Below, in pieces: positions 14,502 through 22,945 of a stretch of DNA of 64,000 bases. A program made the translations under genes and the position numbers. The notes under the pieces are model-generated. The model was not told the origin of the DNA, did no database searches, and saw only the letters and a list, made by a program, of their open reading frames with translations. The DNA is taken from NCBI RefSeq assembly GCF_019703855.1, contig NZ_AP024086.1, forward strand, positions 3,988,501 to 4,052,500, read 5' to 3'. The stretch comes from Desulfomarina profundi. GTDB taxonomy: Bacteria > Desulfobacterota > Desulfobulbia > Desulfobulbales > Desulfocapsaceae. How positions within the stretch are numbered: position 1 is the first letter of the stretch; the number at the start of each line of letters is the position of its first letter.

Positions 14502-15485
14502 ATGAAGAATCTTTCAACAAAGTATCTTGGACTGGAATTGAAGAATCCAGTTATAGTCGGTAGTTGTGGATTGACTCGTTCTGTCGACAAGATAAAAGAG
14601 CTGGCGGACAATGGTGCTGCTGCTGTTGTTCTGAAATCTCTCTTCGAGGAGCAGATACAGGCGGAATTTTCCAGTAATCTCGACAGCTATAACACTGATT
14701 ACCCGGGGGCTGCCGATTATGTCAGGGAATATACCCGCTCCAGTGAAATCCAGGAATATCTCGATCTGATTCATGATGCGAAAAAGGCGGTTGATATTCC
14801 CGTTATAGGATCGGTTCACTGTATTTCCGGAGATGAATGGGTAGCCTTTGCGGGGCAAATGGAAGAAGCGGGGGCTGATGCTCTGGAGTTGAATATTTCA
14901 TTGCTGCCCAGTGACCTGAGACTGACCAGTGAGGCAAGTGAAAAGCGGTTCTTTGAAATTATTGACAGGGTGGGAGAGAAAGTTGCCCTGCCGACCGCAC
15001 TGAAAATCAGCCATTTTTCAGCATCTCTTGCCAATTTTATTGCTAAGTTGAGCTGGCATGACAAGGTTTCAGGCCTGGTGCTTTTTAACCGGTTTTATAG
15101 GCCGGATATTGACATTGATCAGATTTCGCTGAAATCTTCAAACGTATTGAGCAGTCCGGATGAAATCAGTACTTCCCTGCGCTGGATAGCGCTTATGTCG
15201 GGAAGAATAGAAAAAGACCTTGCTGCTTCCACGGGGGTTCATGATCATGAGGGGTTGGTTAAACAGCTTCTTGCCGGAGCGGCAGCAGTTCAGATTGTTT
15301 CGACACTGTATAACAACGGAGCCGGTCAGATCAGTAAAATGCTGGAAGGACTTGAAAACTGGATGGAGGAAAAATCCTTTAATTCCCTGGACGATTTCAG
15401 GGGCAGACTCAGTTATAAAGAGGTGGATGACCCGGCGGTATTTGAACGGATTCAGTTCATGAAATATTATGCAGGATTGACTTAA
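14502..15485 (+). CDS. Dihydroorotate dehydrogenase-like FMN protein
   Basis: A 327-residue TIM-barrel protein of the DHOD-like group. It starts STKYLGLELKNPVIVGSCG, as in class 1 DHODs, with FMN-contact elements LKSLFEEQI, VIGSVHCISGDEW, LELNIS, TALKISHF and the phosphate-binding LAGAAAVQIVSTLY. The segment after LELNIS reads LLPSD rather than the SCPN-type catalytic loop of genuine class 1 enzymes, so orotate formation is doubtful. Such proteins are common in anaerobes beside redox genes. It precedes rnfC by about 210 bp on the same strand, but a MITE fragment at its stop codon separates them. AGGAGAG precedes ATG 14502. Confidence 0.75.
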   Translation: MKNLSTKYLGLELKNPVIVGSCGLTRSVDKIKELADNGAAAVVLKSLFEEQIQAEFSSNLDSYNTDYPGAADYVREYTRSSEIQEYLDLIHDAKKAVDIPVIGSVHCISGDEWVAFAGQMEEAGADALELNISLLPSDLRLTSEASEKRFFEIIDRVGEKVALPTALKISHFSASLANFIAKLSWHDKVSGLVLFNRFYRPDIDIDQISLKSSNVLSSPDEISTSLRWIALMSGRIEKDLAASTGVHDHEGLVKQLLAGAAAVQIVSTLYNNGAGQISKMLEGLENWMEEKSFNSLDDFRGRLSYKEVDDPAVFERIQFMKYYAGLT

Positions 15486-15640: not shown

Positions 15641-15697
15641 AAAGATTATTTGCTGTGGGGTTTTCGAATAACCAGAGAAAAATCAAATACAGAACCT

Positions 15698-17011
15698 ATG
15701 CTGACATTTTCGAAAGGCGGTACACATCCGCAGGAATTCAAAGAACAGACTTCGGGACTGGCCATTGAGGAGATGCCGATACCGGACGAACTTGAGATCG
15801 TTCTGGGTCAACATATCGGTGCACCCTGTACACCAACAGTGGCCAGGCGGGAGGATGTAGAAGAGGCCGGTCTGATTGGAGAGGTAAAAAAGGGACTGGG
15901 TGTTCCACTGCATTCTCCGGTGACCGGCAAGGTGAAGGCCATCGGCATGTCAGCACACCCCATGCGCGTGAGTGTGCCTTCAATTACTGTTTCTGTGAAT
16001 CATGAAGCGGAACCAAAAAAATATGAACTGCAGGATTACCAGGGGCTCAGTGGAAAAGAACTGCTGAAAAAAGTACATGACGCGGGGATTATAGGAGTTG
16101 GAGGGGCAGGATTCCCAACCCATGTGAAATTGAGTCCTCCGCCGAATTCTCCTGTTGATGTCCTTTTACTCAACGGGGCGGAGTGCGAGCCATATATCAC
16201 ATCCGACCATCGCCAGATGCTGGAACATGCTGAAGGTGTAGTTGAAGGTGCGAAGATTATTCTGAAGATTCTGGGTATTACTGAATGTCATATCGGAATT
16301 GAGGCAAATAAACCCGATGCTATTCAGGTTATGAACGAGGCAGCAGAGGCGGCCTCCTCAGGGGATTGCTCCATCAGGGTGAGGACGCTTCAGGTCAAGT
16401 ATCCCCAGGGATCGGAGAAGCAGTTGATCGAGGCCATTACCGGCAGAAAGGTGCCCTCAATGGCCCTGCCTTCGGCAGTTGGTGTGGTTGTTCAGAATGT
16501 CTCCACGGCCAAGGCCATTTATGATGCCGTCGCATACGGGAAACCGCTCTATGAAAAGGTTGTGACCATTGCCGGAAAAGGCATTCACAGGCAGGCAAAT
16601 CTCCTTGTCAAAGTTGGTACGAAAATCAAGGATATTGTTGATTACCTCGGCGGACTGGAACCCGGACTGACAAAGATTATCATGGGAGGACCCATGATGG
16701 GTTTTGCTGTATCAAGTCTTGATATTCCCATAACGAAAACGAGTTCCGCTATTCTGTTTCTGAGAGAAGATGAGATTGATACCAGACCTCACTCCCAGTG
16801 TATCAGGTGCGGCTGGTGTCTTGATGCCTGTCCCATGGGACTCGAACCGAAGGAAATCGGCATTTATGTGGAGGCTAACCGGGCAGAGGATACGGAGCCG
16901 TTTGGTGTCTTTGACTGTTTTGAATGTGGCTCCTGTGCCTATGTCTGTCCCGCGAAGCGGCCATTGGTGCAGTTTATCCGCCTGGCAAAGATGAAGGCGA
17001 AGAGAACGTAG
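15698..17011 (+). CDS. rnfC: Rnf complex subunit RnfC
   Basis: A 437-residue RnfC, the peripheral NADH-facing subunit of the ion-translocating ferredoxin:NAD oxidoreductase. GGTHPQEFK marks the N-terminus. GVGGAGFPTHVKL and NGAECEPYITSDHR form the NuoF-like NAD/FMN region. Two 4Fe-4S motifs close the protein: CIRCGWCLDACP and CFECGSCAYVCP. I chose ATG 15698 because homologs begin near FxGGxHP; the frame opens 16 codons earlier. First gene of rnfCDGEAB, 134 bp before rnfD. Confidence 0.93.
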   Translation: MLTFSKGGTHPQEFKEQTSGLAIEEMPIPDELEIVLGQHIGAPCTPTVARREDVEEAGLIGEVKKGLGVPLHSPVTGKVKAIGMSAHPMRVSVPSITVSVNHEAEPKKYELQDYQGLSGKELLKKVHDAGIIGVGGAGFPTHVKLSPPPNSPVDVLLLNGAECEPYITSDHRQMLEHAEGVVEGAKIILKILGITECHIGIEANKPDAIQVMNEAAEAASSGDCSIRVRTLQVKYPQGSEKQLIEAITGRKVPSMALPSAVGVVVQNVSTAKAIYDAVAYGKPLYEKVVTIAGKGIHRQANLLVKVGTKIKDIVDYLGGLEPGLTKIIMGGPMMGFAVSSLDIPITKTSSAILFLREDEIDTRPHSQCIRCGWCLDACPMGLEPKEIGIYVEANRAEDTEPFGVFDCFECGSCAYVCPAKRPLVQFIRLAKMKAKRT

Positions 17012-17145: not shown

Positions 17146-18162
17146 ATGATGGGGCTATGGAAGGTTTCAGTATCGCCCCATCTCAGGAGCAGTGAATCGG
17201 TAGAAAAAATTATGTGGACTGTTGTGGCCTGCCTTGTGCCGCCACTGATTCTGTCACTCTTTGTTTTCGGTATTCAAACGCTTTTCATAACGGCTGTCTC
17301 TGTTGTCAGTTGCGTCATTGTGGAAGTTGTAAGCCAGAAGGCGCTGGGAAGAAGGGTGACCATCAAGGATGGAAGCGCAGTGTTGACCGGAATGCTTCTC
17401 GCCTTCGTCATCCCACCCGGAGTTTCGCCGCTCCTGCCGATTCTGGCGGCAGTTTTTGCCATTTATATCGGCAAGCATCTTCTGGGTGGCATCGGCTATA
17501 ACTTTTTTAATCCGGCACTGCTCGGACGTGCGTTTTTACTGGCCTCGTTCCCGGTCGCCATGACTTCTGCCTGGCTGCCTCCAATCCATGACATGGCTGT
17601 TTTTTCATACCTGGGGGTTCCAATTGATGCCGTTTCCACAGCAACACCGCTGGCGGTGATGAAAGAACATGGTATGGCAGCTTTTACCGAGGCATTTGGG
17701 TCTGGCTCGTCTCTTTATTCCAGTTTTTTCCTTGGATGGCGTCCAGGTTGTATCGGTGAAACTTCCGGATTTCTCCTGATGCTTGGTGGAGGTTATCTGC
17801 TCTATAAAAAGTATATAACGTATCATATTCCGGTTTCAATCCTGGGGACTATTGCCCTTCTGACCTGGATTTTCGGAGGAGAGACGTATTTCAGTGGAGA
17901 CCCGTTGCTTGCCCTGGTGACCGGTGGTGCTATTCTCGGCTCAATTTATATGGCAACAGATTATGTGACTTCTCCCACCACGAAAACAGCCCAGGTGATT
18001 TTCGGAATATGTATCGGTGGTCTGACAGTTCTGATTCGTCAGAAAGGCGGTTATCCTGAGGGAATATGTTATGCTATTCTTCTGATGAACCCTTTGAGCA
18101 CAGTACTGGACGGTTGGTTTAAACCGAAACGTTTTGCTCCACCCCAGGGAGGTGCAGAATGA
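17146..18162 (+). CDS. rnfD: Rnf complex subunit RnfD
   Basis: A 338-residue polytopic membrane subunit with about eight to ten helices. The sequence DAVSTATPLAV includes the Thr that receives a covalent FMN (S(T/G)AT pattern), around residue 166-167. GYNFFNPALLGRAFL and ATDYVTSPTT are family signatures. It works in the inner membrane, coupling electron flow to Na+ or H+ movement. Its stop overlaps the rnfG start by four bases (ATGA). The start ATG 17146 (or 17149) has no strong ribosome binding site. Confidence 0.92.
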   Translation: MMGLWKVSVSPHLRSSESVEKIMWTVVACLVPPLILSLFVFGIQTLFITAVSVVSCVIVEVVSQKALGRRVTIKDGSAVLTGMLLAFVIPPGVSPLLPILAAVFAIYIGKHLLGGIGYNFFNPALLGRAFLLASFPVAMTSAWLPPIHDMAVFSYLGVPIDAVSTATPLAVMKEHGMAAFTEAFGSGSSLYSSFFLGWRPGCIGETSGFLLMLGGGYLLYKKYITYHIPVSILGTIALLTWIFGGETYFSGDPLLALVTGGAILGSIYMATDYVTSPTTKTAQVIFGICIGGLTVLIRQKGGYPEGICYAILLMNPLSTVLDGWFKPKRFAPPQGGAE

Positions 18163-19055
18163 AAGATATAATGACAATTGTCATGCGGCTGACTGTCTCC
18201 TGTCTCCTTGCCGCAACTGTTATCGGGCTGACTTTTATCTTCACCAGTAATGCCAAAAAGCACAATGAGCATGTCAAGGAACAGCAGGTGATGTATGAAT
18301 TGCTCGGCTACAAGGCCGGCATGACTGTGCCCGCTTCTGTCTCCATGCATGAGTTATACCGCTATATTATTTCAGGGCAGGGAAAGCAGTCAATCGCCTA
18401 TCTGGTTCCTGCAGGACATGACGGAGAAGGTGGTTTTTATTATGTGAATATTGATCTTGACGGGCGGGTCCTCGGTACAGAGAAGGTGGAACTGAGCGAA
18501 GCTGAAGCCCTTGAAGCAGAGACCAGAAACAGGGCTGTGGCAGGTACGGCTGGCACAGGTTTTGATGTGCGTTTTGCAGATCAGACTATTATCGTGACCG
18601 ATAACGGCAAGAGAATAGCTTATCTGCTCAGTGGCAGGTTTCCGGGGTTTAAAACCTTTATCAGTGTCATGCTGGCTCTCGACCCTCGATTCGGCATGCT
18701 GGGCATGGAGATCCTCGAACATGAAGAAGACCCGGGTCTCGGTGCCGAAATCGAGCAAGATTACTTCAAGAATCAGTTTATGGGGAAACCCTTTGAAGTG
18801 CTGAAAAAAATAGGCGTAGTCAAGGAACCCCTGCCCGATGAATACCGGGCCGCCCTGGAAGGGAAGGTGGGGCAGGATGAGATTATGAAGATCCGCGAAA
18901 AGTATCAGGATAAGGATATATATGCCCTTACCGGTGCAACCATCTCTTCAAGATCTGTGAGCAATGGAGTCAAGGCTATCGTCCGGAAATTTGCCTACCG
19001 GGTGGGTATTCTGGATAAAGTGTTGAAGGAACAGCAGCTGGATGTGCCCTTTTAG
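18159..19055 (+). CDS. rnfG: Rnf complex subunit RnfG
   Basis: A 298-residue subunit with one N-terminal membrane helix (about residues 10-30, LTVSCLLAATVIGLTFIF) and a periplasmic FMN-binding domain. YALTGATISSRSV holds the SGAT-like motif whose second Thr carries covalent FMN added by ApbE. EILEHEEDPGLGAEI is another family signature. It is longer than typical RnfG (about 200 residues) because of an inserted central segment (about residues 65-165). It overlaps rnfD by four bases. The TAG stop is formed by the first bases of the MITE-like element at 19053. Confidence 0.9.
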   Translation: MKDIMTIVMRLTVSCLLAATVIGLTFIFTSNAKKHNEHVKEQQVMYELLGYKAGMTVPASVSMHELYRYIISGQGKQSIAYLVPAGHDGEGGFYYVNIDLDGRVLGTEKVELSEAEALEAETRNRAVAGTAGTGFDVRFADQTIIVTDNGKRIAYLLSGRFPGFKTFISVMLALDPRFGMLGMEILEHEEDPGLGAEIEQDYFKNQFMGKPFEVLKKIGVVKEPLPDEYRAALEGKVGQDEIMKIREKYQDKDIYALTGATISSRSVSNGVKAIVRKFAYRVGILDKVLKEQQLDVPF

Positions 19056-19303: not shown

Positions 19304-19921
19304 GTGGCAAACGATAAATCAAGTATGCAGCTTGTTGCAAATGGTATTCTCAGTGAGAATCCTATTTTTCGGCTGGCACTGTCCATGTGTCCTGCCGTGG
19401 GAATCTCAACCACTGTAATGAACGGGATAATGCTGGGGATTGCTGTACTCTTTGTGCAGGTTTTTTCCAGTGTGACCATCTCACTCTTTAAAAACGTAAT
19501 TCATCCGAGAATCAGGATTCCCACCTATACCCTGACCATCGCCACCTGGGTGACGGTCATTGATCTGGTACTGGCGGCAACCCTGCCGGAAGCGTATGCC
19601 AAAATGGGTATTTTTGTAAAACTGATTGTGGCTTTTGCCATTATTACCATGCGCCTTGAGATGTTTGCCTGCAAAGAGAGTGTCTCGGATTCGTTCTGGG
19701 ATGGTCTCGGCATGGGGGTCGGTTTTATGGTGGGCATGGTTGTGATCGGTTTTGTGAGAGAACTGCTCGGGTCCGGTGCTATTCTCGGTTATGATGTACT
19801 TGGTTTTAAACCGTTGCTCTTTTTCATCCTTCCCAGTGCCGGTTTTTTCGTGGTCGGCTTGATGATGGCCTTTTTTAACTGGATTGAAATCTATTACAAA
19901 CGATCAAAAGGGTTAAAATAA
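19304..19921 (+). CDS. rnfE: Rnf complex subunit RnfE
   Basis: A 205-residue membrane protein with six helices, paired with RnfA in the membrane core. Family features include NGILSENPIFRLALSMCPAV near the N-terminus and ACKESVSDSFWDGLGMG, each with a conserved Cys expected to hold the intramembrane iron-sulfur cluster with RnfA. I chose GTG 19304, preceded by AGAGG at eight bases; the next ATG would remove the first seven residues. The stop overlaps the rnfA start (TAATG). Confidence 0.92.
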   Translation: MANDKSSMQLVANGILSENPIFRLALSMCPAVGISTTVMNGIMLGIAVLFVQVFSSVTISLFKNVIHPRIRIPTYTLTIATWVTVIDLVLAATLPEAYAKMGIFVKLIVAFAIITMRLEMFACKESVSDSFWDGLGMGVGFMVGMVVIGFVRELLGSGAILGYDVLGFKPLLFFILPSAGFFVVGLMMAFFNWIEIYYKRSKGLK

Positions 19922-20862
19922 TGATTTCAGTAAAAAAACATTTTTTTATATTGGCCACCCTGGTTTTCATGCTCATGCCGATGCTGGCCCGGAGTGCCGA
20001 TTTTATAGCCGGGCAGAGTTTTGGGGATGACAACGAGATAACCGTCTCTTTTTCAGTGCCGGTTGATAAGGCAATTCTGGAGGATACATCCAGGTACACC
20101 GTATTTGAAGAGCCGGACCCTGATATCAGATTGACGGTGGAATCGGCAACGCCGGGTCCGGATGGCAAGTCGGTTTCCCTTTACTTTCAGGAACCCCTGA
20201 ATATGGTTAAGACTCATGTTGTCACTATTTCCGGTATTCCAGGGAAAGATGTGGTAAGTTTCAAGGTGAGCAAATCCTATTTCGGTTACCTTTTTTCCAT
20301 CCTTATTTCAGCACTGCTCATCAACAATTTTGTGTTCACCAAATATCTTGGTCTCTGTGTGTTTTTCGGAACATCAAAACGGAAGAGTACAGCCAAGGGA
20401 ATGGGTGTCGTTTTTACCCTGGTGATGGTAGCTTCTGCAGTCATGAGCTGGTTTTTCTACCAGTTTATCCTGGTACCGTTTAATTTGAATTTTCTGCAGA
20501 TTCTCGTTTTTATCGGCCTTGTTTCCCTGACCGTTCAGGCGGTCGATACTATTCTCAGAAAGGTTAATCCTATTCTGTTCAACTCCTTTGGAGTGTACCT
20601 GGTTCTTGTTATTGCCAACTGCGTTATTATTGCCGTACCTCTTATTCTGGCCAATAACAATTATAATATTCTGGAAACACTTATGCTGTCCCTGGGAGCG
20701 GGGGGTGGTTTTCTGCTGGCACTCTATTTAATGAGTTCAGTCAGTGAGCGTATGCAGCTTGCCAATATACCGCCAACTTTCAAAGGATTGCCTATTGCCT
20801 TTATTGTGGCTGGACAGTTTGCCATGGCATTCTTAGGTTTTTCCGGACTGCAGATATTTTGA
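19921..20862 (+). CDS. rnfA: RnfA with N-terminal exported beta-sandwich domain
   Basis: A 313-residue protein, while RnfA is usually about 190. Residues 120-313 are a normal RnfA: LISALLINNFVFTKYLGLC, six helices, Cys at the conserved positions and LGAGGGFLLALYLMSS. Residues 1-25 form a signal peptide (FFILATLVFMLMPMLARSA) and residues about 26-112 a beta-rich domain (EITVSFSVPVDKAILEDTSR, VSLYFQEPL, VVTISGIPG) that resembles SbsA/CopC-type Ig-like domains. If the signal is used, the domain sits in the periplasm in front of the first RnfA helix. No frameshift or internal start is needed, although the second part could in principle be translated alone. Overlaps rnfE by one base. Confidence 0.9.
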   Translation: MISVKKHFFILATLVFMLMPMLARSADFIAGQSFGDDNEITVSFSVPVDKAILEDTSRYTVFEEPDPDIRLTVESATPGPDGKSVSLYFQEPLNMVKTHVVTISGIPGKDVVSFKVSKSYFGYLFSILISALLINNFVFTKYLGLCVFFGTSKRKSTAKGMGVVFTLVMVASAVMSWFFYQFILVPFNLNFLQILVFIGLVSLTVQAVDTILRKVNPILFNSFGVYLVLVIANCVIIAVPLILANNNYNILETLMLSLGAGGGFLLALYLMSSVSERMQLANIPPTFKGLPIAFIVAGQFAMAFLGFSGLQIF

Positions 20863-20912
20863 TCCGTCCTCCGGACGGGTAATTATTGGACTTAAAGTGA
20901 GAAAATTTGATT

Positions 20913-21788
20913 ATGGATCCGGCATTAATTAAAATAGCGTTAGGCGGTCTGGTTCTGCTTGGTTGTATCGGGCTCTTTTTTGGCATAGGGCTGGCCATTG
21001 CCGCACATAAATTTGCGGTGGAAGTTAATCCGCTCATCGAAGAGGTCGTTGAATCCCTGCCGCTCGCCCAGTGTGGTGGTTGCGGTTATCCCGGTTGTGA
21101 GGGCTATGCCATTGCAGTGGTCAATGACCCCGACGTTCCTCCTAATCTCTGTTTCCCTGGAAAAGAAAAAGTCGCCCAGCGGGTGGCGGAACTGACCGGC
21201 AAAAAACTGGTGGCGGTTGAAGATCAGATTGCCGTAGTTCGCTGTTCCAGGATTGAGGGACGTGTCAGTCACAAACATGAATACTATGGTTTTGCCTCGT
21301 GTACTGCGGCAAATCTTTCTTTCGGTGGCCCGTCAGCGTGTAATTATGCCTGCATTGGTCTTGGAGAATGTGCTGAAGCATGTCCATTTGATGCCATTGA
21401 AATGGTGGAAAATTTTCCGGTGGTGAATCCTGACAAATGTGTTAGTTGTGGTGTCTGTGTCAAGACCTGTCCGAAAAACATTATTGAACTGCAGACCCTG
21501 AAGGCGCGGGTTTTTGTTCCCTGTTCAACCAGGGATCTCGGGAAAAATGTAAAACAGGTTTGTCAGGTGGGCTGCATTGGGTGTAAGATGTGTGTGAAGG
21601 CTTGTCCGGCTGATGCGGTAACTTATGTGGACAGTCTTATCACGATTGACCATAAGGCATGTATAGAATATGGGGAGTCATGTGAAACTGCCTGTGTTAC
21701 CAAATGCCCCCGTGATATTTTCAGGCATTATGAAGGGCCTCAGGCAATTTCCAGAAATATGGACGATGGTCTGAAAATGGCGGGCTGA
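20913..21788 (+). CDS. rnfB: Rnf complex subunit RnfB
   Basis: A 291-residue ferredoxin-accepting subunit. One N-terminal membrane helix is followed by the Fe-S domain CGGCGYPGCEGYA and several 4Fe-4S motifs in the second half: CIGLGECAEACP, CVSCGVCVKTCP, CIGCKMCVKACP and a final ACIEYGESCETACVTKCP segment. RnfB takes electrons from reduced ferredoxin on the cytoplasmic side. I chose ATG 20913 over TTG 20907. Last rnf gene; apbE follows after 119 bp. Confidence 0.92.
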   Translation: MDPALIKIALGGLVLLGCIGLFFGIGLAIAAHKFAVEVNPLIEEVVESLPLAQCGGCGYPGCEGYAIAVVNDPDVPPNLCFPGKEKVAQRVAELTGKKLVAVEDQIAVVRCSRIEGRVSHKHEYYGFASCTAANLSFGGPSACNYACIGLGECAEACPFDAIEMVENFPVVNPDKCVSCGVCVKTCPKNIIELQTLKARVFVPCSTRDLGKNVKQVCQVGCIGCKMCVKACPADAVTYVDSLITIDHKACIEYGESCETACVTKCPRDIFRHYEGPQAISRNMDDGLKMAG

Positions 21789-21861: not shown

Positions 21862-21907
21862 TCTTTTCTGCAGTTGATTTTCGCATACTTTAAGAGTGGA
21901 AACTGAT

Positions 21908-22945
21908 ATGAAAAAGACAGAGACTCAAATTGATCAGAAAAGAAGATCGTTTTTGAAACTTTCCGGCCTTCTCGGCCTCGGGGCCGCATCCGCTGCTTTA
22001 CTGCCGGCTGAGAGTGCGGAAGCGTTTCTTTTCAATAAAAAAGAGTACAAGGTGACTAAAACCCGTCTTGCCATGGGTACTTTTGTTGCCATGACAGCCA
22101 TTCACCCCTCAAGGGATGAGGCTGAACATGCGATTGGTTTAGCTTTTGAGGAAATTGACCGGCTGAACAGCCTCCTGACGAAATTTGATGCAGATTCTCC
22201 AATAGGCCAGCTGAACAGAGTCGGCAAGCTGGAAGGCGCGCCGGAGGAGGTTCTTGAGTTGGTTGCCCGTTCACTCTATTTTCATCGGGAGACCGGAGGC
22301 GCATTTGATATCACTGTCAATCCGTTGATTGACCTGTATAAGAAGGATTTTGCCGAAGGCAAGATTCCGGACAGCACTCAGATAGAAGCGGCGCTGAAAC
22401 TGGTGGGAACTGAAAAACTGAGGTTCCACTCCGGTACTATTGAGTTTACCGACAGCGATATGTCCATTACCCTCGATGGGATTGCCAAGGGCTATATTGT
22501 AGACAGAGCATCGGATGTGCTGCGGAAAAATGGAATAGGCAACCATCTGATCAATGCCGGAGGAGATATCCGCACAAGTGGTACTGCCGCAAAGGGCCGT
22601 CCCTGGACTGTCGCTGTGCAGGACCCCAATAAAACAAAAGAGTATCCCGATATTATCACCATGAAAGACGGTGCAATCGCGACCTCCGGTAACTATGAAA
22701 TATATTATGACAGGGAAAAGCTCTTCCACCACATAATTGACAGTCGCACGGGGCTGTCTCCACAGCTCTCAACAAGTGTTACCGTGATGGCACCAACTGT
22801 AATGGACGCTGATGCGCTGTCAACTTCGGTTTTTGTTCTGGAACCGAAGGCCGGTGTCCATTTTATCAACGGTCAGCCTCACTGTGAGTGTTTTGTTATT
22901 ACCAGGGATGGTACGGTTTCCCACTCTTCAGGATGGCAGGCATAA
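21908..22945 (+). CDS. apbE: FAD:protein FMN transferase ApbE
   Basis: A 345-residue flavin transferase that attaches FMN to Thr in RnfD and RnfG. The N-terminus has a twin-arginine-like signal (KRRSFLKLSGLLGLGAAS), so the protein is exported, where its RnfG and RnfD targets lie. Family motifs: LAMGTFVAMTA, ITLDGIAKGYIVDRA, NAGGDIRTSG and HIIDSRTGLSP. I chose ATG 21908 with GTGGAA eight bases upstream rather than GTG 21896. Its place after rnfB fits its job in maturing the complex. Confidence 0.92.
   Translation: MKKTETQIDQKRRSFLKLSGLLGLGAASAALLPAESAEAFLFNKKEYKVTKTRLAMGTFVAMTAIHPSRDEAEHAIGLAFEEIDRLNSLLTKFDADSPIGQLNRVGKLEGAPEEVLELVARSLYFHRETGGAFDITVNPLIDLYKKDFAEGKIPDSTQIEAALKLVGTEKLRFHSGTIEFTDSDMSITLDGIAKGYIVDRASDVLRKNGIGNHLINAGGDIRTSGTAAKGRPWTVAVQDPNKTKEYPDIITMKDGAIATSGNYEIYYDREKLFHHIIDSRTGLSPQLSTSVTVMAPTVMDADALSTSVFVLEPKAGVHFINGQPHCECFVITRDGTVSHSSGWQA

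Follow-up and report, generated by a model that had tools for sequence, protein, structure and literature searches.

The rnf operon of Desulfomarina profundi and its fused rnfA gene

The window, i.e., the whole stretch of 64,000 nucleotides of D. profundi DNA analysed here, holds an rnf operon in the order rnfC-D-G-E-A-B-apbE (Table 1). The start codon of its rnfA gene overlaps the stop codon of rnfE (TAATG), and the gene encodes a signal peptide and an Ig-like domain ahead of the RnfA membrane core. The flavin transferase ApbE would load FMN onto RnfG and RnfD. The neighbour of rnfC on its upstream side is a dihydroorotate dehydrogenase-like gene (14502-15485, NCBIfam NF005741), which keeps this position in many Desulfocapsaceae loci.

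Table 1. Genes of the rnf operon and parts of the fused rnfA gene, in positions of the window.
Feature	Position	Strand	Remarks
rnfC	15650..17011	+	true start probably ATG at 15698
rnfD	17146..18162	+	
rnfG, long form	18159..19055	+	298 aa; FMN_bind PF04205 at 163-274
rnfG region holding the extension, residues ~50-135	18306..18563	+	net gain of ~62 residues over short RnfG
rnfE	19304..19921	+	GTG start codon in the ORF listing
fused rnfA	19921..20862	+	single frame, 313 codons, ATG start, TGA stop
signal peptide, residues 1-26	19921..19998	+	MISVKKH n-region, hydrophobic core, Ala/Ser cleavage region
S-layer/Big_5-type Ig-like domain, residues 28-117	20002..20271	+	~90 residues
conserved acidic motif EEPDPDI, residues 63-69	20107..20127	+	P67 and D68 invariant in 72 sequences
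RnfA six-helix membrane core, residues 122-313	20284..20859	+	PF02508; VIA-align Z 17.0 to 9eri_A
Cys146 codon	20356..20358	+	presumed [2Fe-2S] ligand of the RnfA/E cluster; invariant in alignment A3 of relatives
Cys234 codon	20620..20622	+	presumed [2Fe-2S] ligand; invariant in alignment A3 of relatives
rnfB	20907..21788	+	
apbE	21896..22945	+	PF02424

We assign the protein to the RnfA family on the basis of its PF02508 score, two cysteines at the half-helix cluster positions, and rnfB, C, D, E and G in the same operon. The Pfam model Rnf-Nqr (PF02508) matches residues 125-310 with 142.6 bits (gathering cut-off 23.8). Cys146 and Cys234 are the only cysteines of the entire protein, and Cys146 corresponds by alignment offset to position 25 of A. 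woodii RnfA. Among NCBIfam models the rnfA model TIGR01943 scores best, yet its 189.1 bits stay under the curated cut-off of 229.3, which is an annotation threshold and not a biological criterion; the fused clade is divergent in the tree of core sequences. The genome has four PF02508 genes, namely rnfE and rnfA of this operon and a pair at C1:2894317-2895527. As this other pair is nqrDE-like, the fused protein is the sole RnfA of D. profundi.

The N-terminal part is less readily recognised by sequence. Pfam Big_5 matches residues 37-104 with 15.9 bits, below its gathering cut-off of 23.6, and the best of 59 relatives reaches an E-value of 1.2e-4.

Distribution and phylogeny

The same fusion occurs in other Desulfobacterota, and cultured organisms of the fused type include Desulfopila, Desulforhopalus, Desulfofustis and Desulfoprunum. 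Within the order Desulfobulbales, 87 of 258 genomes from ten families carry it (82 near-complete and 5 fragmentary copies), and in a sample of the phylum outside the order it was found in 12 more genomes, which belong to five further families. A pattern scan across whole genomes yielded 64 loci. Most of these belong to Desulfobulbaceae and Desulfocapsaceae, and a few were found in other groups, e.g., in Syntrophus and on two contigs labelled as Pseudomonadota. The search of viral contigs gave no relatives of fused RnfA. Two fused genes on contigs labelled Pseudomonadota/Gammaproteobacteria (L080 and L084) are placed within the Desulfobulbales part of the tree, and may represent either transfer or mislabelled MAGs.

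In a tree of the core sequences, all fused RnfA proteins form one clade with a support of 100/100, or 100/92 once L183 is added. The rnfA gene of L183 (L183:2329-2928) branches just outside this clade and has no additional domain; the RnfG frame of its operon is short, with 229 codons from stop to stop. Comparison with L183 should be helpful in tracing how the fusion arose. We also considered whether fused RnfA is related to NqrE, and rejected this, as it clusters neither with NqrE nor with ordinary RnfA in the tree.

Evidence for a genuine fusion

An extension of this kind could be an artefact of annotation, i.e., an upstream gene that is misannotated or a stretch that is not translated together with RnfA. 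The sub-threshold Pfam and NCBIfam scores are in line with such an artefact, but the comparison with relatives contradicts it, and we consider it scarcely credible. The extra part is in frame in the 87 genomes of the order, and in 59 aligned relatives it carries invariant residues, which puts the fusion far beyond chance. For pairs with estimable dS (up to 1.7), the dN/dS of the domain is about 0.09-0.15 (e.g., 0.054/0.589 and 0.200/1.297). Judged by these substitution rates, the Ig-like domain is under purifying selection; it evolves faster than the core and is still constrained.

The initial annotation had named two observations that would speak against its reading of the gene, a translation start near residue 115 and a separate, unrelated gene in close relatives. 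Across residues 115-126 of 13 aligned genes there is no conserved start codon; the candidate V116 is GTG in 6 of the 13 and GTC or GTA in the others. Neither was an intact separate gene for the domain seen in any relative. The sole split case, G018:C59, lies on a 10-kb draft contig, and a single base pair sets it apart from an intact copy in the same genome. This gene (G018:C59:3813-4702, L024) is a second fused rnfA copy whose frame is broken by the 1-bp difference. The fusion stands on both counts.

Predicted fold and membrane topology

An AlphaFold2 model of fused RnfA, built on 59 sequences, predicts a signal helix at 2-26, seven strands within 29-116, and helices from 121 onward. The pLDDT is 76-86 across most of the Ig-like domain and low in the membrane core, with a mean of 68 for the whole protein. 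In structural comparisons by VIA-align, residues 28-117 superimpose on the Ig domain of SbsC with Z 14.0-14.3 and 1.5 A over 88 residues, followed by the Ig domains of SbsB and Sap (Z ~12; rmsd 1.3-1.5 A across the S-layer matches) and, after these, by CopC-type Ig folds (Z ~9). A PDB sequence search with the domain profile gave nothing beyond sub-significant S-layer matches. By its predicted structure, the N-terminal domain has an S-layer Ig-like fold. It shares the seven-strand fold with SbsC, SbsB, Sap and Big_5 domains (Z 12-14) and differs from them in a sequence score below the Pfam cut-off and in its attachment to a membrane redox subunit. The reading of the gene in the initial annotation as RnfA with an N-terminal signal peptide and an Ig-like domain in one frame is thus borne out by frame, conservation, model and fold match.

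In the same comparison, residue 122 of the model pairs with residue 1 of A. woodii RnfA, so that the extra part stops where ordinary RnfA starts. The RnfA chains of C. tetanomorphum (7zc6), A. woodii (9eri) and A. vinelandii (8ahx) have the six-helix core, the two cysteines and the rnfBCDGE partners in common with the fused form, but they begin at its residue ~122 and have neither signal peptide nor extra domain. About four residues link the Ig domain to the first membrane helix, and this region is conserved (V116, K118, Y120, G122, L124). A linker that is both short and conserved argues for a fixed position of the domain.

With respect to topology, K32 of A. woodii RnfA, seven residues past position 25, faces the cytoplasmic B8 cluster of RnfB (PMC11889175), and RnfA and RnfE have inverted topology relative to each other (PMC12174285). 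K153 of fused RnfA has the same offset from Cys146, which puts the end of the first helix in the cytoplasm and the N-terminus in the periplasm. The loops of the core that carry its positive charges are 1, 3 and 5, in agreement with a periplasmic N-terminus. The signal peptides of most relatives end in an AxA site. Some families have a lipobox instead (L087, L093, L094 and L124-L129), while most lineages lack one; that the type of signal peptide switches while the domain stays supports export. A periplasmic location of the domain, as initially proposed, is thus supported by the signal peptides of relatives and by the published topology (PMC11889175).

Enlarged RnfG and operon cytochromes

At every complete operon, the fused form is found in the order C-D-G-E-A-B, and it is accompanied by an enlarged RnfG. 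The RnfG extension of ~62 residues falls between the membrane helix and the FMN domain, and it lies on the same membrane face as the RnfA domain. In RnfG of fused operons, 159-168 residues separate the helix from the GLGA motif (5th percentile to maximum), with split or truncated genes accounting for the outliers L033, L069 and L090. For ordinary operons, which were hand-picked from the top matches (28 loci, 17 measurable for this distance), the figure is 92-106. The long RnfG is present in every measurable fused operon, and the short one in ordinary operons, also where these are the second Rnf operon of a genome with the fused form. Within the extension, R68-Y69 are invariant and R123 occurs in 68 of 69 sequences. 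Both the RnfA and the RnfG extension hold residues conserved across all families.

The predicted structure of long RnfG (pLDDT 89) can be aligned to full-length V. cholerae NqrC of the Na+-NQR over 213-222 residues, compared to 179-183 residues for known ordinary RnfG. By sequence, however, it scores higher to RnfG than to NqrC models, and, unlike NQR, the operon has rnfB and rnfC and lacks nqrA and nqrF.

A further difference concerns cytochromes. Of 75 fused loci, some of them on short contigs, 1 has a multiheme gene on the same strand at a distance of up to 5 kb, versus 12 of 28 ordinary loci. The one fused case, L150, has its heme gene 2.3 kb downstream. Ordinary operons of the same lineages often start with a 4- to 8-heme cytochrome gene adjoining rnfC, and the RnfB of second, ordinary operons in the same genomes (L155-L167) has ~690-780 residues, compared to ~290 in fused operons. 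These differences suggest that Rnf comes in two types of different function, and they speak against a cytochrome dedicated to the fused type. The window holds no ORF with at least two CxxCH motifs. Genes of the cytochrome c3 type are present elsewhere in the D. profundi genome, and a general periplasmic cytochrome is a possible partner.

Possible function of the RnfA domain

Comparative sequence analysis establishes one conserved reading frame, a single clade and a strict pairing with long RnfG. Starting from here, we propose that fused RnfA is a subunit of a distinct Rnf subtype, in which a periplasmic RnfA-RnfG module holds or guides the flavin shuttle, and we give this proposal about an even chance. 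The signal peptide would export the N-terminus of RnfA, and the small S-layer-type Ig domain would fold in the periplasm, held rigidly above the RnfA/E pair by the linker of ~4 residues to the first membrane helix. An acidic EExDPDI face (E63, D66, P67, D68) might then contact R68-Y69 and R123 in the membrane-proximal extension of RnfG. Such a contact, which we infer along with its role in the shuttle, would hold or guide the FMN domain of RnfG as it carries electrons between the [2Fe-2S] cluster of RnfA/E and the flavin of RnfD; a flavin shuttle of RnfG has been described for Rnf (PMC12174285, PMC11889175). The acidic motif and the basic RnfG residues are suggestive as partners, no more. Due to the single origin of the fusion, the pairing with long RnfG counts as one or few events and may reflect shared ancestry instead of interaction.

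Two other roles have to be weighed against this proposal. S-layer-type Ig domains are commonly structural, and several families have an N-terminus predicted to be that of a lipoprotein. Both would be expected if the domain served in assembly, in anchoring or in the envelope, stabilising RnfA or tying the complex to the cell wall or to a lipid layer, and took no direct part in electron transfer. Most lineages lack the lipobox, however, and a specific partner inside the complex is indicated by the conserved motif and by the strictness with which long RnfG accompanies the domain, which makes such a role rather unlikely, at perhaps one chance in several. Still less probable is a dock for a periplasmic electron carrier, e.g., cytochrome c3, that joins Rnf to the periplasmic cytochrome pool. 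The host lineage consists in large part of sulfate reducers, c3-type proteins are encoded in the genome, and the acidic motif is conserved, all in favour of docking; the scarcity of cytochrome genes at fused loci, set against ordinary loci that include second operons of the same genomes, and the window free of multiheme ORFs stand against it. The initial annotation had suggested a stabiliser or a cytochrome dock near RnfG. Its stabiliser fits the strict pairing with long RnfG, and its dock finds no support in the counts of operon cytochromes.

Beyond the RnfA-RnfG module as such, fused RnfA and long RnfG may together mark an Rnf subclass with a function of its own. It would be the counterpart of the cytochrome-linked Rnf in the same genomes, and its module would alter the gating of the shuttle or the electron partner. 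We regard this wider reading as tentative and somewhat less probable than the module itself.

Relation to known Rnf complexes and significance

Our search covered chiefly the open literature. It returned no description of an RnfA with an N-terminal extension, and for an RnfA with an Ig-like domain the only match was, by title and abstract, an unrelated toxin paper. The fused form goes unmentioned in the searched passages of a 2014 study of Nqr origin, and a 2025 review of Rnf and Nqr mentions no fusion, additional domain or signal peptide (PMC12174285). Within this literature, the subtype with fused RnfA and long RnfG was nowhere found described.

Among the pumps by which anaerobes conserve energy, Rnf holds a central place. 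In the solved Rnf structures RnfA is nearly bare on its outer face, and the question of how RnfG places its flavin between RnfA/E and RnfD is a current one. A variant found across a lineage, which adds a domain exactly there together with an enlarged RnfG, represents a natural experiment. From a practical point of view, fused RnfA can serve in annotation as a marker that tells Rnf with an operon cytochrome from Rnf lacking one; the fused subtype is present in many sulfate-reducing and related bacteria.
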